This document shows positions 54,555 through 58,760 of a DNA stretch of 64,000 bases, piece by piece. Where the stretch lies: the NCBI GenBank assembly GCA_030605835.1, contig JAUWHO010000027.1, forward strand, positions 149,664 to 213,663, given 5' to 3'. The notes beneath the pieces are model-generated. The model made no database searches, was not told the origin of the DNA, and was given only the letters and a program-made list of their open reading frames with translations. Source of the DNA: Candidatus Zixiibacteriota bacterium (GTDB lineage Bacteria > Zixibacteria > MSB-5A5 > DG-27). The position numbers and the translations under genes are program-made. Each line of letters opens with the position of its first letter. Position 1 is the first letter of the stretch.

Positions 54555-55985
54555 ATGAGGCTAATAAGACCCAACAGAACGATTCTAATCTTGGCGGGGT
54601 TTACATTTCTTTTAGGTTCTATGTTTGCTTCAGAGGGTTGGGGTTTCCAGAGCTTGCAGGCGGTTTACAATAATGCTGGCCCCGGTGGAGGGTATGACAA
54701 GCTGCTCGAACTGGATCCGGCGGTGGAATATGGCGGAGATTTGAGCATCCCTTCTGGCGTCACAGTCTGCATCCACGGTAACGGCGCCAAGATTATCGGC
54801 CTGAGCTCTCCCGACCGGGGTATTCGGGTTTACGGAAGTGGGCTTGACATCGACCACTGCGTTTTCGTTGGACGTGAGACCGGCGCTAATGGAATCTACT
54901 TCGACAGCAACTCCTACGGTCAGGTGACAAACAACACTATCGTCGATTTCAACAATGCGGGAATAAAGGTTCTATATTACAACGTGTCCCGCGGATTGGT
55001 AATCGAAAACAACATCATCACCGGGTGCTATTACGGTTTCTACGGAGAGGAAGGTTACCTCCCCACCTATTTTGCCTATAACGACATCTGGGGCAACAGC
55101 GGTCTCAATTACGCATACTACTGCCCTGGGTGAGGCGGGGGGGTTAAGCCATTTAACCCCACTCCCGGTACGGGAGAGATTCAAGAGAATCCCCTCTTCC
55201 AGGACCCCGAAGCCGAAGACTACAGGCTAACGGTGGGCTCACCCTGCATCGATGCTGGCGATCCTTCGTTCCCTTACGATCCCGACGGCACCGTGGCGGA
55301 TATGGGAGCGCTCTACTTCTACCATGTGGCGGAGGTTACCATAACTCCCAGGAACCCGCCCGTCACCATCCCGCCCTCAGGAGGGACGTTCAGATACGAA
55401 GCCAGCATCACCAACACCAGCGATGCGGCCATCGACATCTATGTCTGGACGATAGCAAACGTCCCCGAGATGGGATACTTCGGACCGCTCATCAAGCGGA
55501 GGCTGCATTTGTCCCCGCACGAGACTTTCCACCACCCCAGCGTGCCTCAGGAGGTTCCCGGGATGGCTCCGGCCGGTGTTTACCACTACATAGCCTATGT
55601 GGGCTATTTCCCCTCTGACAAGATGGACAGCTCCTCTTTTGTCTTCTTCAAGACCGGTAAATCGACCGGAGGCAGGTGGTCTGTCGGCGACTGGAGCGAG
55701 GTTCCGGAGGCAACCCTGCCGGTAGCGAGCTCGCTTCTGAGCAACTACCCCAACCCCTTCAACAGCGCCACCACCATCAACTACGAGCTTTCCTCTGGCG
55801 GGGGGGTCAAGCTGGAAGTCTTCTCTCTTCTCGGCGAGAGGGTGGCGACCTTGGTTGACACCTGGCAGGAAGCGGGATATAAATCGGTTAGCTGGGAGGC
55901 CTCCAAAGTCTCCTCCGGAGTCTATTTCTACAGGCTGACAGTTGGAGACTACAGCGAAACCAGGAGGATGATCTTCGTAAAGTAA
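54555..55985 (+). CDS. Secreted right-handed beta-helix protein with in-frame TGA (55131-55133), Ig-like domain and C-terminal sorting domain; candidate selenoprotein/readthrough protein A
   Basis: ORF track shows 54555-55133 and 55233-55985 in the same frame; the 99 nt between encode 'GGGVKPFNPTPGTGEIQENPLFQDPEAEDYRLTV' without a stop; homology with paralogue B continues on both sides. Confidence 0.75.
55162..55176 (+). promoter_or_regulatory. SECIS-like hairpin candidate A
   Basis: CTCCCG-GTA-CGGGAG; loop G lies 35 nt after the TGA. A second hairpin GGGGTTAA-GCCAT-TTAACCCC (55140-55160) sits between. Confidence 0.4.
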
Positions 55986-56011
55986 TCTCAAAAGAGCTGA
56001 AGGAATACCGG

Positions 56012-56045
56012 GCGGGGGGTTTTATTCCCCCCGCTTGCATTTTTC
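56012..56045 (+). terminator. Rho-independent terminator-like hairpin
   Basis: GCGGGGGG-TTTTATT-CCCCCCGC, then TTGCATTTTT. Confidence 0.7.
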
Positions 56046-56237
56046 AGGTCGAACTTGATTGATTTGACCGGGCCCGCCAGCGTCGCCTGGTTAAGAGGGT
56101 CTGAACCGATGCTTTTTATCTTCTCAGGATATTGATTGGAACTCAAATACGCTATCTGTGGTTGTATTGACCGAAACTGGGGACCAAAATCAAAAGAGGT
56201 CCAGAGAAACAGTCGCCTTCAGATAGGGAAAGGCAGG

Positions 56238-57647
56238 ATGGTCTTGAAGAGCAACCTTAAGTTTTCAGTTCTGTTGACTTTGATTGGGGTTGGGCTCCTC
56301 CTCGTCCAAGTGAACTCTGCCGAGGTCAGTCTGCAGGAGGTTTACAACAATGCCGGCCCCGGAGGCGGTTACGATAAACTGTTGGAGCTTGATCCCCAGG
56401 AGATATATATCGGGGATCTGTTGATTACCGGCCCTTATCATGAAGTCTGCATCCACGGGAACGGGGCGCTGGTGGTGCCCGATGGGAATTTCTATGCCAT
56501 CCTGGTTTACGAATCCCTGCTGGATGTCGACCATCTGGTCATCGAGGCCAGCATCATCGGTCTCTTTTACAGCAATCACTCCTGCGGCACGGTGAAGAAC
56601 AACACCATAGCGGGAGCTGCGGACTGTGGTATCCGCTCCACTGACATCTACATGCCTGGAGGTCTGGAGATCTTCAACAACATAATTGTGAATAACGGTT
56701 ACGGCATCTATGCCAATGAGGATTACCTTCCTCAATACATCGCCTACAACGACCTCTGGAATAACCCCGGAGGGGATTACATGATGTACTGTGGGTGAGG
56801 CGGCGATGAGCCGTTTGCTCCCACTCCCGGTACGGGAGAAATTCACGAAGACCCACTCTTCAGAGACCCCTGGTCGCAGGATTTTGGTTTGAGCCTTGGT
56901 TCCCCCTGCATCGATGCTGGAAACCCCGGCACTCCTTTCGATCCCGACGGCACCATCGCCGACATGGGCGCACTCTTCTTCAATCATCCCGTGGAAATCA
57001 CCATGGCTCCCAACAGTCCACCCATCATAATCCCGCCCGAGGGTGGGAGGTTCAGCTTCGAAGCCACCATCATCAACAGCAGTGACATGGCAGTGGAGGT
57101 CGAGGTCTGGACGATGGCAGATGTTCCCGGTGTGGGTCATTACGGACCGCTTATCAAGCGCAGCATTCATCTCGCCCCGCATCAGACCATCTACCGCCCC
57201 AATCTGTCCCAGAGTGTTCCCGGTTTTGCCCCGGGGGGCGATTACTACTATATAGGTTATGTCGGGAACTACCCCGATAAGATGGACAGCTCCTTCTTCG
57301 CCTTCTCCAAGGCCGGGGAGTCGACCGCCGGGAGGTGGTCGGTAGATAGTTGGTTCGAGGAGACTGCTGGGCTTAGTTTGCCGGTCAGAGCTTCGCTTCT
57401 GGGCAACTATCCCAATCCTTTCAACAGTTCCACCACCATCAACTACGAGCTTTCCTCCAGCGCGGAGGTCAAGCTGGAGGTCTTCACTCTTCTCGGCGAG
57501 AAGGTGGCGACCTTGGTCGACCGCTGGCAGGAGGCGGGATATAAGTCGGTCAGCTGGGAGGCCTCCGGGGTCTCCTCCGGAGCGTATTTCCACAGGTTGA
57601 CAGTTGGAGACTACAGCGAAACCAGGAGGATGATCTTGGTCAAGTAG
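56238..57647 (+). CDS. Secreted right-handed beta-helix protein with in-frame TGA (56796-56798); paralogue B
   Basis: ATG 56238 (MVLKSNLKFSVLLTLIGVGLLLVQVNSAEV); ORFs 56136-56798 and 56889-57647 share a frame; bridge encodes 'GGDEPFAPTPGTGEIHEDPLFRDPWSQDFGL'. Confidence 0.75.
56824..56838 (+). promoter_or_regulatory. SECIS-like hairpin candidate B
   Basis: CTCCCG-GTA-CGGGAG identical to copy A; loop G 32 nt after the TGA; preceded by CGGC-GATGA-GCCG (56801-56813). Confidence 0.4.
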
Positions 57648-57875: not shown

Positions 57876-58760
57876 ATGCACAGGACTCTGATCTTAAAAA
57901 GGTTCAAAGAAATCGGACTAAAACCGTCTGAGGCAAAGACCTACCTCTCTCTTTTGGAAAAAGATACTCTTACCGTATCTGAAGTCTCGAGGATCGCGGG
58001 AATACCCCGTTCAAATGCTTATCAGGCCTTGGAGGAATTAATGTCTAAGGGCCTGTGCATATCCAAACCGGGTGATACAAAAAAATATAGCGCTTCTGAC
58101 CCCGCGTTACTGGTGGAGAAGTTTCATATGCAAGCGGATGAAGCAGCTGAAAGGGAGTTGCAGAATTTGACTGAGAAGGAAAAACTGATATTGGACAGAA
58201 GCAATGTTGCGAAGGAGAGTATTACGAATCTCATGAAGGAACTAAGGCCGCAATACGAAAACAGCCGGGAGAAGACCAATCCCTTAGACTACATTGAAAT
58301 CATAAAAGACCCTTATCAGATACATAAGAGATTCATGCAGCTGGGGAGGGAAGCCAAGAATGAGATATTATGTTTCGCAAAACCTCCCTATGTGGGCCCT
58401 AAGGAATGGCTCAAAGAACAATCCGAGCAAGAGCTTGAGCCGCACCAAGAGGGCCTAAGAAGTAGATGCATTTATGAGATCCCAAAGGACGAAGAAGAAA
58501 TTGAATGGTTGTTTAAGACCATAGACACAGCTGCCCGGCATGGGGAAAGGGCGCGGGTGATTAAAGAGTTGCCGATGAAAATGGCTATCTTCGATTCAAG
58601 AACTGTCATATTAGCATTGGCAGACCCGATTTCCAAGCGGACCTCCCTCACGACACAAATTGTTGAACATGCCGATCTGGCGGAAGGCTTAAAGATACTA
58701 TTCGAGACATTATGGGAACAGGCTAAAGACTACCATATTCTGAAAGATTCCGGGAGGTGA
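57876..58760 (+). CDS. TrmB-family HTH transcriptional regulator
   Basis: 'RFKEIGLKPSEAKTYLSLLEKDTLTVSEVSRIAGIPRSNAYQALEELMSKGL' winged HTH plus TrmB-like C-terminal domain. Confidence 0.9.
   Translation: MHRTLILKRFKEIGLKPSEAKTYLSLLEKDTLTVSEVSRIAGIPRSNAYQALEELMSKGLCISKPGDTKKYSASDPALLVEKFHMQADEAAERELQNLTEKEKLILDRSNVAKESITNLMKELRPQYENSREKTNPLDYIEIIKDPYQIHKRFMQLGREAKNEILCFAKPPYVGPKEWLKEQSEQELEPHQEGLRSRCIYEIPKDEEEIEWLFKTIDTAARHGERARVIKELPMKMAIFDSRTVILALADPISKRTSLTTQIVEHADLAEGLKILFETLWEQAKDYHILKDSGR

Follow-up and report, generated by a model that had tools for sequence, protein, structure and literature searches.

Two tandem genes of a Zixibacteria genome, here called A and B, almost certainly encode selenoproteins in which an in-frame UGA would be decoded as selenocysteine (Sec) by means of a downstream hairpin bound by SelB, i.e. 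a bacterial SECIS element (bSECIS). Judged from their sequences, they appear to be members of a previously unlisted family of secreted beta-helix selenoproteins that occurs in four or more bacterial phyla. The window, which is the whole stretch of 64,000 nucleotides that was analyzed (G000:C31:149664-213663), carries gene A on the + strand at 54555..55985, for an apparently secreted right-handed beta-helix protein of 476 aa with a predicted Sec at position 193 (U193) and a C-terminal type IX secretion (T9SS) sorting domain, followed on the same strand by its paralogue, gene B (56238..57647; ~60% identical, 469 aa, U187). Both frames contain a single in-frame TGA and no other interruption before their terminal TAA or TAG. 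The presumed Sec codon of A lies at 55131..55133 (+ strand) in the motif YCPG-U-GG, with the residue context YYCPG-U-GGGVKPFNPTPGTGE, and that of B at 56796..56798 (+ strand) in the motif YCG-U-GG, with the context MMYCG-U-GGDEPFAPTPGTGE. Directly downstream of B, at 57876-58760 of the window, an ORF resembles by eye a TrmB-type transcription regulator.

The original prediction held that the same hairpin, CTCCCG-GTA-CGGGAG, follows both in-frame TGAs at a SECIS-like distance and that its apical loop begins with G-U. Its description proved exact: the 15 identical nucleotides are found on the + strand at 55162..55176 in A and at 56824..56838 in B, the loop is GTA in both genes, and the loop G is at +35 in A and +32 in B, so that the loop is separated from the UGA by 34 and 31 nt, respectively. 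The consensus model of bSECIS elements (PMC13188914, Fig. 2) has an apical loop of 3-9 nt, a stem of 4-16 bp, a G within the first two loop positions and a UGA-to-loop distance of 16-37 nt, and the energy is at or below -7.5 kcal/mol (PMC13188914). The hairpins of A and B agree with it in loop (3 nt, G then U), stem (6 bp), position of the G, spacing and energy (-8.1 kcal/mol for each bare hairpin). An Rfam search at the two hairpins returned no match.

A constraint acting on the nucleotides rather than on the peptide had also been proposed, and it was borne out. Indeed, only ~1.3% of the synonymous recodings of the same peptides yield a GU-loop hairpin of this strength, for each of A and B, and the test gave p<0.03 for each of the 18 Zixibacteria genes and p<0.05 for 22 of the 30 Neomarinimicrobiota genes described below; these values were kept separate and not combined because the genes are related and hence not independent. 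Furthermore, TGA-less paralogues that share the PGTGE stretch encode it with different codons, and the hairpin does not form. Covariation of the stem among homologues, the check suggested beforehand, is strong in Neomarinimicrobiota, where pairing is kept in 98.3% of the cells, 26 two-sided changes were counted, each of the four positions shows double changes, and the loop always starts with G-U (alignment of 29 rows). It is clear in Cloacimonadota (94.4% paired) and weaker in Zixibacteria (91.1% paired), where double changes are few and weak and the innermost pairs hardly vary, so that in this phylum the recoding test and the hairpin-free TGA-less PGTGE paralogues carry more of the case. Counted against the SECIS reading are the many Neomarinimicrobiota hairpins of only 4 bp (-2.4 kcal/mol alone) and the weaker hairpins of L148 and L154.

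A second, closer hairpin after each TGA was likewise part of the prediction, and it does exist in the two genes (GGGGTTAA/TTAACCCC in A, CGGC/GCCG in B). As a conserved element it was rejected: over the 18 Zixibacteria members, folding in this region does not exceed that of synonymous recodings (mean z -0.49; p=0.66 for gene B), and the second hairpin is therefore not a conserved feature.

Profile searches of 898 genomes from four phyla identified 77 members of the family that carry the in-frame UGA at one column, of which 18 belong to Zixibacteria, 30 to Neomarinimicrobiota, 3 to Planctomycetota and 26 to Cloacimonadota. Among the 132 genomes of the class and phylum to which the window belongs, searched with a profile of the domain, 17 full-length genes scored 252-287 bits, compared with at most 68 bits for TGA-less beta-helices, and one further gene, cut by a contig end, scored 59 bits; all 18 contain exactly one TGA. 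With the wider profile used for the other phyla, the UGA was present in 30/30 Neomarinimicrobiota members (127-236 bits vs 64 for the next match; 245 genomes), in 3/3 members of a planctomycete class (397 genomes) and in the 26 Cloacimonadota members (124 genomes). No full-length member lacking the UGA was found in Zixibacteria, Neomarinimicrobiota or Planctomycetota, and the score gap to TGA-less beta-helices is wide. Each of the three groups tested forms one side of a branch in the tree, and a second tree places the Cloacimonadota group with the planctomycete genes. The distance from Cys to Sec is mostly three residues (CxxU), with two in B and four in Cloacimonadota and planctomycetes. Two members deviate from the CxxU motif (L078, LDPEU; L080, CU) and were counted against the Sec reading. 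In two Neomarinimicrobiota genomes the gene lies, in a shared order, between an ORF that by eye resembles a GNAT acetyltransferase and genes that by eye resemble imidazolonepropionase and urocanate hydratase (L119, L122).

The exchange of Cys and Sec is documented at both positions of the motif. One Cloacimonadota member, L197, reads LCEYGC with a TGC codon at the column where its relatives read LCEYGU. It is placed inside the Sec clade as sister to L198 (support 97/86), and this nested position makes a change from Sec to Cys the simplest history; L197 is thus likely a later Sec-to-Cys conversion. Conversely, four other Cloacimonadota members (L205, L213, L218 and L219) read UEYGU or UDYGU, a second UGA four codons from the first replacing the conserved upstream Cys of the motif, and are predicted to be double-Sec forms. 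Such an exchange of UGA and Cys at the motif positions would be hard to explain otherwise than by Sec. The number of Cys homologues at the UGA column is unusually low, a single one (L197) beside the 77 UGA members. TGA-less paralogues sharing the PGTGE stretch have neither Cys nor Sec (e.g. L012, GYSGPPTPF), and the same is true of a distant relative, L191, which was counted against the Sec reading. TGA-less homologues keeping the hairpin had been named in advance as evidence against a SECIS: the PGTGE paralogues do not keep it, whereas L197, formally a TGA-less homologue, retains the hairpin of its lineage, as expected of a recent Sec-to-Cys change.

The host genome has the machinery for Sec insertion, with a tRNA-Sec (69.8 bits; called SeC tca by ARAGORN), SelB (368 bits) and SelA (574 bits). 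Since tRNA-Sec is common across the window's class (105/132 genomes), co-occurrence there is weak evidence. It was found in all Zixibacteria carriers at least 92% complete; of the genomes tested in the other phyla, it is present in 4 of 5 from Neomarinimicrobiota and in those from Phycisphaerales and Cloacimonadota. The partial genomes G001 and G135, which gave no tRNA-Sec over the cut-off, were counted against the Sec reading. In one Zixibacteria genome tRNA-Sec scored above the cut-off twice (G005:C26 and G005:C141, 74.5 and 56.3 bits). Taken with the UGA homologues, the Cys/Sec exchange and the constraint on the hairpin, the presence of tRNA-Sec, SelA and SelB supports the central claim of the original prediction, namely that the hairpin is a SECIS element and the UGA a Sec codon.

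Other explanations of the in-frame TGAs have to be weighed against this reading. Ordinary readthrough would suppose that the UGA is a leaky stop at which a near-cognate tRNA (e.g. that for Trp) inserts its residue, and that two isoforms result, one free and one carrying the C-terminal sorting domain. The recognized attachment domains indeed sit beyond the UGA, and in the relative L191 the region contains GWGG; L191 has, however, lost the partner Cys too. Moreover, neither readthrough nor pseudogenes predict that the family swaps UGA with Cys (TGC) at the column, and UGA for Cys at the second motif position. The conserved hairpin at SECIS spacing with GU in its loop, and the tRNA-Sec of almost every carrier genome tested, also speak against readthrough, which we regard as very unlikely. 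It is likewise highly improbable that the hairpin merely reflects protein or codon bias at PGTGE and that SelB uses another signal. In Zixibacteria, the hairpin does overlap the conserved peptide and its innermost pairs show little variation, but it is rare among synonymous recodings and absent from the TGA-less PGTGE paralogues. In addition, L081 of Zixibacteria no longer has the downstream hairpin but carries another one with a GU loop, GGCCCG-GTT-CGGGCC, at +18, and the GU/GG-loop hairpins of other phyla, located at roughly +18 to +29, overlie different peptides.

A further reading takes the TGAs for inactivating mutations in pseudogenes or for sequencing errors, since an isolated in-frame stop may be an error in a metagenome-assembled genome. 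Yet 77 genes in four phyla share the column, the frames are open past the TGA, and downstream of it A and B differ by a dN of 0.21 and a dS of 0.79 (dN/dS well below 1); this reading is refuted by conservation and retains a negligible probability. That UGA has been reassigned as a sense codon throughout the genome, for which no supporting evidence was found, is hardly conceivable. TGA is a normal stop in the window, where it ends ~11 of the 34 long non-overlapping ORFs, and among the 148 matches of protein A in its own genome an in-frame TGA occurs in A and B only, by which reassignment is refuted.

The family proteins look like secreted right-handed beta-helices. Protein A matches the Pfam Beta_helix model with 34.1 bits, over the cut-off of 25.9, and B with 21.6 bits, below it, and both N-termini are signal-like by eye. 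The C-terminal type IX secretion sorting domains of A (55746..55982, + strand; ~residues 398-476) and B (57408..57644, + strand; ~residues 391-469) are encoded only beyond the UGA, and both proteins score over the curated cut-offs (A: Por_Secre_tail 33.6 bits, TIGR04183 42 bits; B: TIGR04183 35.8 bits, with Por_Secre_tail also matched). Such T9SS tails lie beyond the UGA in Zixibacteria and Cloacimonadota members, and in some Neomarinimicrobiota a dockerin-like module occupies this place (L144, just below the Pfam cut-off). Many of the 148 own-genome matches to A cover the C-terminal region only; judged from these matches, the genome probably encodes very many T9SS-type cargo proteins. A search for plasmid-borne relatives gave matches to the sorting domain only.

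By analogy with the known bacterial pathway, SelB would bind the hairpin 31-34 nt downstream of the UGA and would deliver Sec-tRNA-Sec to the UGA after Y-C-(P)-G. The full-length product of A or B would then be exported and, by means of its T9SS domain, attached; as this domain lies behind the UGA, termination at the UGA would yield a product without it. The Cys/Sec pair is located at the end of the N-terminal (first) beta-helix domain, where the CxxU or CxxxU pair may form an extracellular selenol-thiol center, likely with a redox function (selenenylsulfide) or as a ligand of soft metals or electrophiles.

On balance, we favor the view of an old and widespread extracellular beta-helix family in which Sec is near-obligatory (77 UGA members to one Cys member) and occurs in single or double form, which would locate selenium chemistry on scaffolds attached to the surface instead of in a redox enzyme of the cytoplasm. 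The C-terminal part with any sorting domain would be made only upon Sec insertion. Published computational discovery of selenoproteins mostly pairs UGA with Cys homologues, and the near absence of the latter may explain why this family was missed. Standard gene calling would furthermore truncate its genes at the UGA. The family adds a beta-helix and a T9SS-type cargo to the selenoproteins, in four phyla including the marine Neomarinimicrobiota, and its natural series of hairpins with shifting position, together with one derived Cys member, should be useful for studying SECIS evolution. No family-specific model matches in NCBIfam (June 2026), and the beta-helix family is absent from the 2026 inventory of 119 prokaryotic selenoprotein families (PMC13188914). 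The titles and abstracts on selenoproteins with Zixibacteria, Marinimicrobia, Cloacimonadota, beta-helix or dockerin contain no apparent description of it, preprints and most subscription papers being outside this scope.

With regard to known systems, the family sequences match the beta-helix domain of Beta_helix (PF13229) and NosD (PF05048), the scores with NosD being mostly below the Pfam cut-off and covering the generic repeat; one solved xylosidase weakly matches the family profile (E 0.006). The hairpins of A and B resemble the bSECIS model (PMC13188914) in all the features given above, but their spacing is near the upper end of 16-37 nt; their relatives in other phyla have a shorter spacing and often weaker stems. 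The Cys three residues before Sec recalls known CxxU families, such as glycine reductase protein A and the SelW-like and AhpD-like proteins, from which the new family differs in being a secreted right-handed beta-helix and not a thioredoxin-like fold or such an enzyme. Selenoproteins of the envelope were listed in 2026, namely a TonB-dependent receptor (FCYXU type, NF049945), MtrB/PioB-like (NF041027) and UshA-like proteins. By their names they belong to the cell envelope and have other folds, and the list gives no beta-helix or T9SS cargo among them; the TonB-dependent receptor nevertheless shares with the new family the CxxU motif, in the form FCYXU.
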